Source: Salinarchaeum sp. Harcht-Bsk1 (lineage in GTDB: Archaea > Halobacteriota > Halobacteria > Halobacteriales > Salinarchaeaceae). From it: DNA of 64,000 bases. The stretch is taken from the NCBI RefSeq assembly GCF_000403645.1, contig NC_021313.1:124001-188000 (forward strand). The letters are read 5' to 3'. The first letter of the stretch is position 1, and each line of letters starts with the position of its first letter. Shown one piece after another: positions 38,921-50,095 of the stretch. Position numbers and translations under genes: made by a program. Under the pieces are notes generated by a model. The model saw only the letters and a program-made list of their open reading frames with translations. It was not told where the DNA came from and did no database searches.

Positions 38921-40145
38921 CTACGCCCGGACCTCCTCTTCCTCGAGGGATACCCCGACCTCGCGGGCGAAGCGCTCCAGCTCCGCCTCGGTGACGCGGT
39001 CGCCCTCGGCGCCGTAGTCCTTGACCCGCCGGGTGACCGCCCGGACCTCCTCGTCGGAGGGGGCGAAGCCAGCGTCGACCAGGCGCTCGCGGACGCCGTG
39101 GGTCCCGGTGTGCTTGCCCAGGACCAGTTCGCGCTGGGCACCGACCATCTCGGGGGTCATGACGCCGGGCTCGAAGGTGTCGGAGTTCTCGATCACGCCC
39201 GCGGCGTGGATGCCGCTCTCGTGGGAGAAGGCGTTGGCCCCGACGACCGGCTTGTTGCCCGGCGTCTCGATACCGGACTTCTCCTCGACGACGCGTGACA
39301 GCTCCGTGATCCGCGTCGTGTCGATGCCGGTGTCGGCCTGGAACACGGACTCGACGGCCATCACGAACTCTTCGTAGGCGGCGTTGCCGGCCCGCTCGCC
39401 GATGGAGTTGACCGAGACCTGGGCCTGGTCGGCGCCGGCCTCGATGCCCGCGATGGCGTTGGCCGTCGCCATCCCGAAGTCGTCGTGGGTGTGGACGTCG
39501 ATCCGCGCGTCGGTGTGGTCCGTGACCGTGTCGATCAGGTCGTAGAACCGCCGCGGCGCGGCGACGCCGCAGGTGTCCGGGATGTTGATCCAGTCCGTCC
39601 CCGCCTCGGAGACGGCCTCGATCACGTCCAGTAGGAATCCTTCGTCCGTGCGCGTGGCGTCCATGGGCGAGAACATGCAGGTCGCGCCCGCTTCGGTGAC
39701 CCGCTCGACGGCGTCGACCGCGTTCTGGCGGACCTCCTCGCGGGTCGCGTGCATGGAGTCCTCGATCTGGACGTCGCTCGTCGAGACGAAGACGTGGACC
39801 ATCTCCGCGCCCGAATCGAGGGCGGCTTCGATGTCCTTGTCCACGACTCGCGCCAGCCCACACACGTCGGAGCTGGTGCTCTTCGCGATGTCTCGGACTG
39901 CCTCGAACTCGGCGTCCGAGTTCACCGGGAACCCTGCCTCGATGACGTGGGTGCCCATCTCGTCGAGGATCGCCGCTATCTCGCGTTTGTCCTCGTAGGA
40001 GAAGGACGTGCGAGGCGACTGTTCCCCGTCTCTGAGCGTCGTGTCGAAAACGCGCGCCGTCTCGATCTCGTCAGTTGAATCCAGTGTGCCCTGGAAGAAC
40101 TCGATCCGCCTGGCTGGTGCCAGACGAGTCGTCGGAATGCGACAT
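38921..40145 (-). pseudogene. leuA: 2-isopropylmalate synthase, apparent 5' frameshift
   Basis: LeuA condenses acetyl-CoA with 2-oxoisovalerate, the first step to leucine. The main frame gives FDTTLRDGEQSPRTSFSYEDKREIAAILDEMGTHVIEAGFP (metal site and catalytic Arg), SVNSIGERAGNAAYEE and KPVVGANAFSHESGIHAAGV, all intact to the stop at 38921. Its homology reaches back to EFFQGTLDST, but that frame has no ATG, GTG or TTG before a stop at 40151. A good start, ATG at 40145 with a TATA-like element 30 bases upstream, begins MSHSDDSSGTSQADR in another frame, which stops at 40071. Frames must join near 40100. Starting at the next in-frame ATG (39958) would lose the active site. Truly broken, or a sequence error. 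Confidence 0.75.
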
Positions 40146-44219: not shown

Positions 44220-45859
44220 GCAGCGCCGGTCCAGGCCGCCGCGAGGTCGCCCACCGGCTCTTCGCGGCGGAGTACGACGACGCGACCCTCGAGTACGCCG
44301 AGAGTGACGAGGAGCGCGCCCCGAACTACGTCGTGCTGCCGTCGGGTGCCCGCGTCAATCGCCTCTTCGTCGTCGGCGTCCTGACTGCGGTGGAGCAGGT
44401 CAACGACGACACCGTCCGCGCCAGGATCGCCGATCCCACCGGAGCCTTCGTCGTCTACGCCGGACAGTACCAGCCCGACGAACTCGCCGCGTTCCAGTCC
44501 CTCGAAGCGCCGGCGTTCGTCGCGGTCACCGGGAAGGCGAACACGTTCTCGCCGGAGGGCTCCGACCGCGTGCTGACCTCCGTTCGCCCCGAGAGCGTCA
44601 CCGAGGTCGACGCCGAGACCCGGGATCGCTGGGTCGTCGCGACGGCCGAACACACGCTCGCTCGCGTCCAGACCGCTGCAGAGGCCCTCGGCATGGACGA
44701 GCGCGGCGAGGGCCTGCAACGGGCGCTCCTCCGGGACGGCGTCGAGCCCGGGCTCGCGGAGGGAATCTCGAGAGCGATCGATCACTACGACACCTCCACC
44801 GACTACCTCGACGCCCTCCGCCAAGTGGCGACGCAGGCCCTCGAGGTCGTCGCTGACGAACGATCCGAAGTCGAGGCCCTCGACCGCGAGCCCGCGGGGG
44901 GCGACGGAACGACGACGGCCAGCGATCTCACCTCACTGGTCGACGAAGAGCGGTTGAGCGTCACGCAGGCTGCGGGCGACGTGGATCCGGACGTCCTGCT
45001 TGGAGACGAACCCGATGGTGAGGAACCCGATGGTGAGGAACCCGAGGAAGCCGAGGAAACGGGCGAGGAAGAGGAAGCAACGTCTGGCACCGAAGCGACG
45101 GACGCGGAGACCGAACCCGCCGAAGGTGGCTCCGCCGAGCCCACGGAAGCGACCGAGGAACCCGAGTCGAGCACGAGTGAACCCGCCGGCGAGCAGACGG
45201 CCGACGAGGATGCGACCGCCGCCGACACCGGCGCAGATAGAGACGAGCAGGATTCCACAGGAGTAGCCCAACCGGAAACGGGCGAGGACGCTCCGGCGGA
45301 ATCCGCGACCGAGCCTGCGAAGGCTGCCGTCGACGAATCCGCCGAAACCGAGGAAACTACCGAGGGCGAGGAACCCTCCGAGAGCGACGAATCCGAGGCC
45401 GACGGTGAACTGTACGAGGTCGACGAGGCGGAACGCGAGCAGATCGAAGAGGAGTACGGCGTCGGCTTCCAGAGCGGCACCGAGGTCGACCCGGCCGGGG
45501 AGGCAGGAATCGAGACCGACGACACGCCCCCGGGAGCGAACGAGGGCGAGGAGCCTGCCGCCGTGGAAGCAAGCGACGAGACCGACGGTGCCGAGGCTGA
45601 GTCCGAATCAGTTGCAGACGACGATGACGAGGACAGCGAATCCGAAGACGCCGAATCCGAGGACGTCGACCTCGAAGGAGTGCTGCTCGAAGAGATGTCC
45701 GCGCTCGACGATGGCGACGGCGCCGATCGCGAGGCGCTGATCGACGCGGTGGCCGGGACAACCGGTGCCGACGCCGACGCCATCGACGACGCCATCGACG
45801 ACCTGCTGATGAGCGGCCAGTGCTACGAGCCCGGCGACGGCCAGCTCAAACCCATCTGA
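44216..45859 (+). CDS. RPA-associated protein with long acidic linker and C-terminal winged helix
   Basis: A 547-residue protein. Residues ~1-220 contain the conserved COG3390-like OB-fold part: REVAHRLFAAEYDDATLEYAESDEERAPNYVVLPSGARVNRLFVVGVL, RIADPTGAFVVYAGQYQPDE. Residues ~258-482 are an extremely acidic Glu/Ala/Thr/Ser linker, including a tandem EEPDG repeat (45011-45042). The last ~65 residues (LEGVLLEEMSALDDGDGADREALIDAVAG...DAIDDLLMSGQCYEPGDGQLKPI) resemble the RPA32 C-terminal winged helix, which recruits partner proteins. Haloarchaeal RPAPs bind their cognate RPA. Starts within the rpa stop (ATGA). Confidence 0.87.
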   Translation: MSSAGPGRREVAHRLFAAEYDDATLEYAESDEERAPNYVVLPSGARVNRLFVVGVLTAVEQVNDDTVRARIADPTGAFVVYAGQYQPDELAAFQSLEAPAFVAVTGKANTFSPEGSDRVLTSVRPESVTEVDAETRDRWVVATAEHTLARVQTAAEALGMDERGEGLQRALLRDGVEPGLAEGISRAIDHYDTSTDYLDALRQVATQALEVVADERSEVEALDREPAGGDGTTTASDLTSLVDEERLSVTQAAGDVDPDVLLGDEPDGEEPDGEEPEEAEETGEEEEATSGTEATDAETEPAEGGSAEPTEATEEPESSTSEPAGEQTADEDATAADTGADRDEQDSTGVAQPETGEDAPAESATEPAKAAVDESAETEETTEGEEPSESDESEADGELYEVDEAEREQIEEEYGVGFQSGTEVDPAGEAGIETDDTPPGANEGEEPAAVEASDETDGAEAESESVADDDDEDSESEDAESEDVDLEGVLLEEMSALDDGDGADREALIDAVAGTTGADADAIDDAIDDLLMSGQCYEPGDGQLKPI

Positions 45860-46605
45860 TGGCGACCGTCGAACCGGTCCCCGACGCGCCGGCGGCGACG
45901 GCGTGGCTCGACGGCGAGCGAGCCCTGCTCGTCGCGGATTACCACGCCGGCATCGAGGTCGCACTCGCGATCGAGCGGGGCATCGAAGTCGAATCCCGCG
46001 CCGAGGAGCGTCGCCAGCGACTGGTCGATCTCGTCGAGCAGACCCGCCCCGATGTGCTCGTTATTCTCGGCGACCTGATGCACTCGATCGGCGATCCGGG
46101 TGGCCGCGAACGCGACGAGATCGAGGCGCTGGTCGAGGCCTTGCCCGACCTCCCGATCACGCTCGTGAAAGGCAATCACGACGGCGCAATCGAGGAGTGG
46201 GTACCACGCGTCGATGTGACGGACGGGGCCGGCGTCCGATTTGGCGAGATCGGGGTCGCCCACGGCCACACCTGGCCTGCGAGGGAGGTGCTCGAGGCCG
46301 ACGTCGTTTGCGTGGGCCACGAGCATCCACAGGTCCGCCTGGAGGACGAGGTCGGCGGCAGTCGCGTCGAACGGGTGTGGCTCCGGGGGCCGATGGCGGG
46401 CGCCCCGTTCGAGGCACGCGACGACGAACTGGACTGGAGCGCACCCGAACTCGTCGTCCTTCCGGCCTTCAACGGCCTCGCTGGCGGCACCTGGATCAAC
46501 GTCGAGGGCCAGGAGTTCCTCGCACCGTTCCTCCCGGAGGGACTCGCCAGCGGGGAGGCGTTCCTCCTCGACGGAACGCGACTCGGGGACTATCGGACCG
46601 TTTAG
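45859..46605 (+). CDS. metallophosphoesterase of the COG1407 (ICC-like) type
   Basis: A 248-residue calcineurin-like phosphoesterase. Metal-site motifs: LLVADYHAGIE (D-x-H), VILGDLMHSIG (GD), LVKGNHDG (GNHD), GEIGVAHGHTWP (GH) and VVCVGHEHPQV (GHxH). The complete two-metal site suggests an active nuclease or phosphatase; the substrate is not known. Its start shares one base with the stop of the RPA-associated gene (TGATG). This third position is conserved in haloarchaeal rpa operons, pointing to a role with single-stranded DNA. Confidence 0.9.
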   Translation: MATVEPVPDAPAATAWLDGERALLVADYHAGIEVALAIERGIEVESRAEERRQRLVDLVEQTRPDVLVILGDLMHSIGDPGGRERDEIEALVEALPDLPITLVKGNHDGAIEEWVPRVDVTDGAGVRFGEIGVAHGHTWPAREVLEADVVCVGHEHPQVRLEDEVGGSRVERVWLRGPMAGAPFEARDDELDWSAPELVVLPAFNGLAGGTWINVEGQEFLAPFLPEGLASGEAFLLDGTRLGDYRTV

Positions 46606-47006
46606 AGAGCACGGGGTCGGGACCCCAGCCACGAAATCCCGACCCGGCTTGGCAGGAGGCGTATCGTGCTGATCTCGGCGGCTGTACAGTTCGGTCGTCG
46701 ACGGGGCACCGTCGACAAGAAGAGCTACGGGGAAGACGCAGATATATCGTCGCTCATGGGCAGATATTACACTTCATTGGCCGACTGTGCTACATACAGC
46801 CAAATGTATTTACTATAGTAAAACATTCCCGTCAAATTTTGGAGCGGCACGCTTGCGTCGTGGACAGGTGCAGACGTGCACCTGATTATCCCGAACGGTT
46901 ACTACCGACACCTTCACTGGACGTTCGTCCAGAGTTCAAACGTCTTTGAGGACGTAGATTCAGTATTAGGGCTGACGTTAAGCCGATCGACGCACCCGAA
47001 GGAGGT
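46606..47006. other. 401-bp intergenic region with five perfect dyads and an A/T-rich island
   Basis: No convincing gene is seen. Perfect inverted repeats lie at 46697-46716 (GTCGACGG/CCGTCGAC), 46809-46822 (TTTACTATAGTAAA), 46865-46884 (CAGGTGCA/TGCACCTG), 46917-46932 (CTGGACG/CGTCCAG) and 46940-46955 (ACGTC/GACGT). The stretch 46738-46850 is much richer in A and T than its surroundings. The first dyad may end the rpa operon; the rest could be operators or fold as a non-coding RNA. Confidence 0.55.
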
Positions 47007-47141
47007 ATGCACGGCATCGATCCGTACGAATCGACCGATCCAACCTTCGAGTGCCCGAGCTGTGGCGCCCGTTCCGACGACCGCGGCGAATGCGATTCGT
47101 GTTCGACCACAATGTTGAACATCTCCGTGGCGCGCGAGTGA
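47007..47141 (+). CDS. zinc-ribbon microprotein (rubrerythrin-like domain)
   Basis: A 44-residue protein. It has two Cys pairs, CPSCG at 16-20 and CDSC at 29-32, spaced as in a zinc ribbon, then a short tail MLNISVARE. The pattern D-P-Y-x-x-x-x-P-x-(Y/F)-E-C-x-x-C...C-x-x-C-x-x-x-(L/M)-x-N-I-(A/S)-V-x-R-E is one I recognise from many haloarchaeal small zinc-finger proteins. A strong ribosome-binding site GGAGG lies 1-6 bases before the ATG. Function unknown. Too small for most gene callers. Confidence 0.8.
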   Translation: MHGIDPYESTDPTFECPSCGARSDDRGECDSCSTTMLNISVARE

Positions 47142-47233: not shown

Positions 47234-50095
47234 ATGAGTCGGGAGTCCGGGGCGGACGCGTTCTCGCAACTCGGGCCAGCGGTCCGCTCGGCACTTTCCG
47301 CACGGGGCTTCGCGACCCCGACCGAGCCCCAGCGGCTCGCGATCCCCCCGCTCGCCGACGGCCGACACACCCTCGTGGTCGCGCCGACCGGCACCGGGAA
47401 GACCGAGACCGCGATGTTGCCGGTGTTCGACGCCGTCGCGGAAGCCGAACACAGCTTCGGCATCTCCGCGCTGTACGTCACGCCGCTCCGCGCGCTGAAC
47501 CGCGACATGCGCGACCGCCTGGACTGGTGGGGCGAGGAACTGGACCTCGACATCGACGTTCGCCACGGCGACACCTCAGACTACCAGCGCAGCAAGCAGG
47601 CCGACGATCCGCCGGACGTGCTCGTGACGACGCCGGAGACGCTCCAGGCGATGTTCACGGGGAAGAAGCTCCGACGGGCGCTCGAAGACGTCGAGCACGT
47701 CGTGATCGACGAGATTCACGAACTGGCGGCGTCGAAACGCGGCGCACAGCTCGCGATCGCCCTCGAACGACTCCGCGACCTCGCTGGCCCGTTCCAGCGC
47801 GTCGGGCTCTCCGCGACCGTCGGCGATCCCGAGACCGTCGGGGCCTTCCTCACCGGCGGCCGTGGGTGTGCGATCCGCGAAGTCGACGTCGGGAGTCGGC
47901 TCGAACTCGACGTGGTCGTGCCGGAGGTCACGGCCGAGGACGAGGCGCTCGCGAGCGAACTGATGATCGAGGAGGAGTTCGCGAGCCACGTCCGGGCGAT
48001 CCGGGACGTCGTAGCGGAGAACGAGTCGACGCTGATCTTCGTGAACACTCGGCAGACGGCGGAGGCGATGGGCTCGCGGTTCACGCAGCTAGCTGCCGAC
48101 GAGGATAGCGGATCCGGAGGCGAGGGCGTCGTCGACGTCGGCGTTCACCACGGCTCGCTCGCGAAGTCGGCCCGGATCGAGATCGAGGACTCCTTCAAGG
48201 CCGGCGAACTCGACGGCCTGCTCTGTACGTCGTCGATGGAACTCGGCATCGACGTGGGCCACGTCGACCACGTCGTCCAGTACCAGAGTCCACGTCAGGT
48301 AACCAGGTTGCTCCAGCGCGTCGGGCGTGCCGGGCACCGCAGCGACAAAGTGTCGGCCGGGACGGTCGTCGCGACCCGCTCCGACGACGCACTGGAGGCG
48401 ATGGCGATCGCACGCCGGTCGCTCGACGGCGAGGTCGAACCCGCGCCGATCCACGAGGGGAGCCTCGACGTCGTCGCGAACCAGGTCGGTGGGCTCGTCG
48501 AGGGACAGGGTGGCGTCCACGCCCGCCGAGCGTACGAGATCGTCACCGCGGCCTACCCGTTCCGCGATCTCGACAAATCGACGTTCAAGGACGTCGTCCG
48601 GGAGCTTTCCAAGAACCGGATCGTCTACCTCGACGAGGACGCAGACCGCATCGAATCCTCCGGCACCTGGCGGTACGTCTACGAGAACCTCTCGATGATC
48701 CCGGACGAGGAGACCTACGCCGTCGAAGACGTGGCCTCGGGTTCACAGATCGGGACCCTCGACGAGCGGTTCGTCGCGACGTTCGCCGAACCCGGCGCGG
48801 CGTTCATCCAGGGCGGACAGATGTGGCGCGTCACGAACGTCGACGACGACGACGGTTCGCTGACGGTGTCGCCGATCGAGGATCCGAGTGGCGAGATCCC
48901 GTCCTGGATCGGCGAGGAGATTCCGGTCCCACGGCCCGTCGCGGAGGAGGTCGGCGAACTCCGCGGCGTGGCGGGCAGACAGTTCGAGCATGGAGCCGAC
49001 CGCGCAGCCGTCGCGCGAGACCTCGCCCGTCGGTACCCGATCGAGGCCGAGCACGTCGCGCGGGCACTTGACCCGATCGAGCGCCACGCCGGGGAAGCGC
49101 CGCTTCCGACGGACGAGGGCATCCTGATCGAACGCGAGGGCGGGAAGATCGTGCTCAACGCGCCCTACGGCCACGACGCCAACGAGACGCTCGGTCGGAT
49201 GCTCTCGGCGTTGCTCGGCCAGCGCACCGGCTCCTCGGTCGGGCTCGACGTCGACCCGTACCGAATCGATCTGGAGGTCCCCGGCATCGTCGACGGCAGG
49301 GACGTCATCGCCGTGCTCGAGGAGACCGACCCCGACCACGTCGAGCCGTTGCTGGAGCTCTCACTCGATCGCTCCGAGGCGCTCGCGTTCCGGCTCTCGC
49401 AGGTCGCCGAGCACTTCGGCGCGATCAAACCCTGGCAGGGCGACTCGAGCCCACCGGCGAGCCGCCTCCGACAGTACCTCGCGAACACGCCGGCATACGA
49501 AGAGGCCAAACGTGAGGTGTTCCACGAGGACCTCGACGTCGAGGCAGCAGCCGATCTCCTGCGGTCGATCCAGCGCGACGAGATCGCGATCGAACTCGTC
49601 GGTGGCCGGACGCCGATCGGGACGGCGGGCAGGAGTTCGAACATGGAGCTCCTCGTCCCGCAGAACGCGGACGCGGGCGTCGTCGAACAGGTGAAAGATC
49701 GAATCTACGGCGACGACGTCCGGCTGTTCTGCGTCCACTGCACGGAGTACGATCGAGTGAAGCCCGTCAAGCGCGTTCGCGAGGAGCCCTCCTGTCCGCA
49801 CTGCGAGTCGACGATGATCGCCGCGTTGCACCCGTGGGCCGACGACGCCGTGACCGCTATCAAGGCCGACGACAAAGACGACGAACAGGAGAAGCTGACC
49901 GAGCGAGCCTATCGTTCCGCGAGCCTCGTCCAGCACCACGGGAAACCGGCCGTGATCGCGATGGCGGCCCGTGGCGTCGGACCGGACACGGCTGCCCGGA
50001 TCATCAACAAGCACCGCGAAGCCGAGGCCGACTTCTACCGCGACATCCTGGAACAGGAGCGCCAGTACGCCCGGACGAAATCCTTCTGGGACTGA
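47234..50095 (+). CDS. lhr: Lhr-type superfamily 2 DNA helicase
   Basis: A 953-residue ATP-dependent helicase of the Lhr-core family, linked to replication-coupled DNA repair. Motifs: VVAPTGTGKTETAMLPV (I), LYVTPLRALNRDM (Ia), VVIDEIHEL (DEIH in place of DEAH, II), GLSATVGDPE (III), TLIFVNTRQTAEAMG (IV) and YQSPRQVTRLLQRVGRAGHR (VI). After ~430 come the winged-helix and Lhr-specific domains. The C-terminus holds a four-cysteine cluster, CVHCTEYDRVKPVKRVREEPSCPHC, about residues 833-857, characteristic of the haloarchaeal form. Start ATG at 47234. TATA-like CCTTAAC about 30 bases upstream. Confidence 0.93.
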   Translation: MSRESGADAFSQLGPAVRSALSARGFATPTEPQRLAIPPLADGRHTLVVAPTGTGKTETAMLPVFDAVAEAEHSFGISALYVTPLRALNRDMRDRLDWWGEELDLDIDVRHGDTSDYQRSKQADDPPDVLVTTPETLQAMFTGKKLRRALEDVEHVVIDEIHELAASKRGAQLAIALERLRDLAGPFQRVGLSATVGDPETVGAFLTGGRGCAIREVDVGSRLELDVVVPEVTAEDEALASELMIEEEFASHVRAIRDVVAENESTLIFVNTRQTAEAMGSRFTQLAADEDSGSGGEGVVDVGVHHGSLAKSARIEIEDSFKAGELDGLLCTSSMELGIDVGHVDHVVQYQSPRQVTRLLQRVGRAGHRSDKVSAGTVVATRSDDALEAMAIARRSLDGEVEPAPIHEGSLDVVANQVGGLVEGQGGVHARRAYEIVTAAYPFRDLDKSTFKDVVRELSKNRIVYLDEDADRIESSGTWRYVYENLSMIPDEETYAVEDVASGSQIGTLDERFVATFAEPGAAFIQGGQMWRVTNVDDDDGSLTVSPIEDPSGEIPSWIGEEIPVPRPVAEEVGELRGVAGRQFEHGADRAAVARDLARRYPIEAEHVARALDPIERHAGEAPLPTDEGILIEREGGKIVLNAPYGHDANETLGRMLSALLGQRTGSSVGLDVDPYRIDLEVPGIVDGRDVIAVLEETDPDHVEPLLELSLDRSEALAFRLSQVAEHFGAIKPWQGDSSPPASRLRQYLANTPAYEEAKREVFHEDLDVEAAADLLRSIQRDEIAIELVGGRTPIGTAGRSSNMELLVPQNADAGVVEQVKDRIYGDDVRLFCVHCTEYDRVKPVKRVREEPSCPHCESTMIAALHPWADDAVTAIKADDKDDEQEKLTERAYRSASLVQHHGKPAVIAMAARGVGPDTAARIINKHREAEADFYRDILEQERQYARTKSFWD

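Follow-up and report, generated by a model that had tools for sequence, protein, structure and literature searches.

A conserved block between rpe and a zinc-ribbon microprotein gene of Salinarchaeum as a candidate genus-restricted small RNA gene

The interval that follows the last gene of the RPA operon in Salinarchaeum sp. Harcht-Bsk1 holds, at its left end, a block that we consider a candidate gene for an intergenic small RNA (sRNA) of ~110 nt, restricted to the genus and lying on the minus strand, where it would converge on rpe; on the comparison of two genomes, the chances that it is such a gene appear to us evenly balanced. The block is conserved in the one congener compared, has a sharp left border, is absent elsewhere in the set searched, contains hairpins, and is accompanied by promoter-like words at fixed spacing. 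If transcribed, it would constitute an unlisted sRNA gene positionally tied to the RPA (single-strand-binding) repair operon of a haloarchaeon, and because the candidate is defined by conservation, not by expression, it offers short invariant parts to mutate.

Results

The window, that is the whole 64,000-nucleotide stretch analyzed here, is part of a single contig of 3,255,260 bp; the excerpted text of the genome paper on Salinarchaeum sp. HArcht-Bsk1 gives 3,255,260 bp and 66.7% GC (PMC3715672). The interval of interest, 46606–47006, is flanked by a metallophosphoesterase gene, itself preceded by a single-strand-binding/replication-factor-A gene, and by the gene for a zinc-ribbon microprotein of 44 aa, after which an Lhr-type helicase gene (lhr) begins at 47234. 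Following convention, we name the metallophosphoesterase gene at 45859–46605 rpe.

45859–46605, plus strand: rpe, metallophosphoesterase, end of the RPA operon (open reading frames, Pfam)
47007–47141, plus strand: DUF7129 zinc-ribbon microprotein, 44 aa (Pfam PF23455, E 7e-16)

In 54 of the 110 loci compared, lhr follows rpe at a distance of no more than 2.5 kb; this neighborhood is thus widely retained, so that the conserved block would have been either gained or preserved in Salinarchaeum. A DUF7129-like microprotein gene was observed between rpe and lhr in 6 of the 110 loci, two of them in Salinarchaeum and the others being L043, L044, L061, and L062; the order rpe-microprotein-lhr is thus also found outside the genus. 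Our literature search returned no paper on DUF7129. The initial annotation had described the interval as gene-free, and indeed no open frame tried there or in its counterpart in the congener reached a Pfam cut-off, which fits a non-coding element and counts in favor of an sRNA. It had also pointed to an A/T island: at 46720–47000 the GC content falls to 49%, where the mean is 67%, and no 280-bp slice of the window has a lower value.

The conservation analysis relied on G001, the sole other Salinarchaeum genome compared, and therefore on two sequences in all. The interval occupies the equivalent place in G001, and positions 46608–46718 show 84% identity over 111 positions, including 39 consecutive identical bases from 46608, with flanks that are far less alike. 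Among the gaps between genes of the window, only the leuA leader (97 nt), the tRNA-Leu gap (69 nt), and one long gap (50 nt) have longer identical runs; the genes behind this comparison were picked roughly, with at least one overlooked, and the long gap probably holds an unpicked gene. The left edge of the block is sharp, as ~36 unrelated bases separate it from rpe in G001. The local identity, the identical run, and the sharp edge all argue for an sRNA gene, the features of which are the following.

46607–46717, minus strand: candidate sRNA gene, ~110 nt (84% identity to G001, 39-nt identical run, sharp left edge)
46697–46716, minus strand: 5' hairpin GTCGACGG-TGCC-CCGTCGAC, 8-bp arms, 4-nt loop; G001 has the same arms and differs by one change in the loop
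46614–46645, minus strand: 3' hairpin with loop GUGGCU; 9 exact pairs, rising to 13 when G-U is counted on the minus strand; identical in G001
46608–46670 (span), minus strand: outer stem AGCACG (46665–46670)/CGTGCT (46608–46613); G-U in G001
46651–46665, minus strand: invariant strand GATACGCCTCCTGCC, identical in both species, unpaired in the consensus fold
46742–46747, minus strand: TATA-like ATATAT, separated from the 5' hairpin by 25 nt; word and spacing the same in G001
46759–46765, minus strand: ATCTGCC, 11 nt before ATATAT; conserved in G001

The minus strand is favored by the consensus fold of the two sequences (-44.6 kcal/mol, against -39.5 for the plus strand) and by the outer stem, in which the G001 sequence gives G-U on the minus strand and A.C on the plus strand, although a single G-U change is thin evidence for strand and, with only two sequences, there is no real covariation. 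Counting against the assignment, the folds of single sequences stand weakly above shuffles in the window, with z scores of -1.0 for the minus strand (-2.0 with a few more bases) and -1.3 for the plus strand; the G001 sequence reaches z -2.4, and its minimum-energy fold pairs the outer part differently. No terminator T run was seen for the minus-strand candidate, which counts against an sRNA gene.

On the side of the block away from rpe, the arrangement ATCTGCC-N11-ATATAT-N25 occurs at equal spacing in both species, a further point in favor of an sRNA gene. Over this putative promoter region, 30 of 65 ungapped positions match between the species, compared with 16.2 by shuffling (0 of 5000 shuffles as high), and ATATAT occurs once in the 40 kb around the site. 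The haloarchaeal promoter elements given in the excerpted text of PMC4983044 are a BRE of CGAAA and a TATA element of TTWT; ATATAT, at -31 to -26, and its surroundings match these poorly, which counts against the assignment. Our reading of the two words is nevertheless that of an archaeal promoter layout, though one with a poor BRE.

The main rival of an sRNA gene is that the block is a plus-strand 3' UTR of the RPA-rpe mRNA, in which the hairpin at 46614–46645 would act as a terminator or as a processing or stability element, with no separate RNA gene. This reading is possible, if tentative. It is in agreement with the start of the block 2 nt after rpe in the window, with the capacity of the 9-bp stem to form on either strand, and with a plus-strand fold that is as stable in the window (-49.5 versus -45.9 kcal/mol). 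On the other hand, the block extends ~70 nt past the hairpin and includes the invariant unpaired strand, it lies ~36 nt farther from rpe in G001, on the plus strand an A.C mismatch disrupts its outer stem, and it is the side of the block away from rpe that carries the conserved TATA-like word.

The block is single-copy in the genome and, as far as can be seen from the sequences searched, confined to the genus Salinarchaeum. A BLAST search with a 127-bp block against 392 genomes of the order gave matches in 382 at E <= 1, the best outside G000 (the genome of the window) and G001 being 1.6e-4. A covariance model built from the two sequences gave 25 matches with E <= 0.1 in 195 genomes, where ~20 were expected by chance; the best outside the genus had an E value of 2.3e-4, and the best 8 of 10 loci looked like coding sequence or poor fits. 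The same model applied to 90 of the 110 rpe loci gave a best E value of 0.11 and no match at the syntenic place. By eye, the sequence downstream of rpe carried the block in 2 of 30 loci (G000 and G001). The loop pattern yielded no further accepted member in 98 genomes, and where the loop motif, sought at 15 loci including that of the window, occurred outside G000, it lay in apparent coding sequence and without the hairpin block. With filters as strict as these, remote homologues may go unnoticed. No Rfam family matched the interval, whether at gathering score or at E values up to 10, and a scan of L005, L050, and L161 gave two matches far below gathering scores, both outside the block. Plasmid, phage, and viral contig collections gave no match to the block, and a scan of genome contigs listed 80 loci, none of them from Salinarchaeum, a set from which records near the window may be absent. 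No Salinarchaeum RNA-seq study was among the matches listed in our literature search.

The initial annotation had drawn attention to five perfect inverted repeats, at 46697, 46809, 46865, 46917, and 46940, all of which are present. That at 46940 (ACGTC-TTTGAG-GACGT) has arms of just 5 bp and falls below the size used for the count of arms of at least 7 bp and for the G001 comparison. The list lacked the stem at 46614–46622/46637–46645 (9 bp, 14-nt loop), which is the longest exact one in the interval. The three strong dyads of the A/T-rich part are as follows.

46809–46822, no strand: palindrome TTTACTATAGTAAA, 7+7, no gap; unique in the genome, absent from G001
46865–46884, no strand: dyad CAGGTGCA-GACG-TGCACCTG, 8-bp arms, 4-nt loop; absent from G001
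46917–46932, no strand: dyad CTGGACG-TT-CGTCCAG, 7-bp arms, 2-nt loop; absent from G001

With arms of at least 7 bp and loops of at most 8 nt, four dyads were observed against a mean of 0.19 in 500 first-order Markov copies of the interval, none of which reached four; 0.6% of the 400-bp slices of the window reach this number. In the one congener, the dyads at 46697 and 46613 are kept, and those at 46809, 46865, and 46917 are absent. The dyads of the interval are therefore not one unit, being split between those shared with G001 and those that are not, and the suggestion of a structured non-coding RNA is supported for the left quarter (46607–46717) but not for the A/T-rich dyad cluster. The surplus of dyads in the unconserved part could reflect chance in a stretch chosen for its striking looks, or could be mutational in origin; template switching produces perfect dyads. 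An echo of the 46917 dyad ~90 nt before the microprotein start in L043 was put down to chance, as it is not seen in L044 of the same genus. The A/T-rich DNA has an alignable counterpart in G001: positions 46719–46958 align with a score of -2 against a mean of -67 for shuffles (0 of 500 higher), with just 139 identities in 266 columns, and the length from 46697 is nearly equal in the two species (310 and 311 nt). The interval thus shows that striking inverted repeats within an A/T island may lack conservation, the constrained element being a less conspicuous neighbor.

Another proposal was that the dyads are operators, clustered to control the zinc-ribbon microprotein; their excess over chance and their position upstream of this gene can be adduced in its favor. 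We regard this as unlikely, since three of the four strong dyads listed (46809, 46865, and 46917) have no counterpart at the orthologous position of the one congener, where the microprotein is retained and 82% identical, and since the palindrome, sought across the 3,255,260-bp genome, has no other copy even with one mismatch. What is conserved upstream of the microprotein is the element below; GATnCAGTATTAGGG and a TTAWGC box (~-28) are conserved in G001 while the surrounding DNA is not, and even with one mismatch permitted, each of the two genomes has a single copy of GATnCAGTATTAGGG. These words are best read as a plain archaeal promoter layout.

46957–46983, plus strand: conserved microprotein promoter, GATTCAGTATTAGGG (46957–46971) and a TTAAGC box at about -28 to -24, from the G001 comparison

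A small gene in decay seems a highly improbable explanation of the A/T-rich stretch. The G001 counterpart carries an open frame, alignable to the window, whose ATG is ACG there, and the low GC content is like that of acquired genes; the frame has no relative in 98 genomes except in G001 itself and no Pfam match above cut-off.

L005 1238–1468, minus strand: 76-codon open frame of G001, in the A/T-rich stretch

A G001 frame with CPSCG, considered as a tandem DUF7129 remnant, gave Pfam matches below cut-off only and was rejected. The residue of a small mobile element, to which low GC content and dyads had pointed, is scarcely credible for a single-copy sequence with no plasmid, phage, or viral match that occupies an equivalent site of near-equal length in both species.

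The search for a conservation baseline among the gaps of the window also brought to light an unusual gene start. Positions 38921–40145 of the minus strand presumably encode LeuA/CimA, a 2-isopropylmalate or citramalate synthase to judge by similarity. From the stop that precedes it up to TTLRDGEQ, the main frame (RIEFFQGTLDSTDEIETARVFDTTLRDGEQ...) contains neither ATG nor GTG nor TTG. A different frame (MSHSDDSSGTSQADRVLPGHTGFN) begins with an ATG at 40145 and runs to a stop at 40071; a +1 shift in the vicinity of 40100 would fuse it to the main frame. The 97-nt block at this leader is identical in G001. An out-of-frame ATG, and after it an almost invariant TCGAGTTCTTCCAGGGCAC carrying RVLPGH-like codons, were found in all 24 haloarchaeal loci inspected (L211–L234; 28 were returned), and the main frame lacked ATG, GTG, and TTG in 12 of 22 loci scanned by script. 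A programmed +1 frameshift and a non-AUG start are candidate explanations. No description of this start was found in the literature searched, including the excerpted texts of PMC5009743, PMC8211752, and PMC8305020, and its conservation may deserve a study of its own.

Discussion

An sRNA gene accounts for the borders of the block, for its conserved unpaired strand, and for the TATA-like word, and it makes of the A/T island a spacer between two promoters. As predicted for its transcription, strand, and ends, the sRNA would be transcribed from the TATA-like promoter within the A/T island, from 46717 down to 46607, starting at the 5' hairpin and ending at the strong GC-rich 3' hairpin beside the rpe stop codon. 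Its mode of action might be base pairing in cis with a read-through RPA-rpe mRNA, whose 3' UTR would be its exact complement, or alternatively trans pairing, for which the invariant strand GAUACGCCUCCUGCC, unpaired in the fold, would serve. The A/T-rich remainder (46720–47006) would then separate the sRNA promoter from that of the leaderless DUF7129 microprotein gene, and the extra dyads would be species-specific. No target was found among genome matches to the complement of the exposed strand, which numbered 11 with up to two mismatches, including its own site, against 34 for the reversed control; the best duplex of this strand with rRNA was no better than that of shuffled probes in both species. 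A more specific proposal, which we consider very unlikely, is that the genus-specific sRNA mimics the 16S tail and competes with ribosomes for those few haloarchaeal mRNAs that bear an SD, in addition to pairing with the RPA-rpe 3' UTR. It is prompted by the resemblance of the conserved single-stranded GCCUCCU to CACCUCC near the 3' end of the 16S rRNA of this organism and by a loop region, GUGGCUGG, close to GCGGCUGG in the 16S rRNA; such mimicry would tie repair-gene output to the translation state.

Among known systems, the candidate sRNA resembles archaeal C/D and H/ACA guide RNAs in being a small hairpin RNA of similar length, but unlike them it shows on inspection neither C/D boxes nor an ACA tail, matches nothing in Rfam at E values up to 10, and has no rRNA complementarity above shuffled probes. 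The comparisons that follow draw on excerpts of the papers concerned. In PMC5867862, 26% of Haloferax antisense RNAs overlap 3' UTRs, and the candidate is like these in converging on rpe and in being complementary to operon read-through; unlike them, as bounded here, it stops short of the rpe coding sequence, and any overlap would depend on the mRNA end. The candidate is also like haloarchaeal intergenic sRNAs, such as sRNA132 and s479 of Haloferax volcanii, in size, intergenic place, a putative TATA-like promoter of its own, and narrow spread, whereas it differs from them in being known from conservation alone and in having no described homologue as far as Rfam shows. Archaeal sRNAs measure 50–500 nt, and 21% of intergenic sRNAs are conserved across three Methanosarcina species (PMC5867862); intergenic sRNAs of the size and narrow spread proposed here are thus already known in archaea (PMC5867862, PMC4983044).
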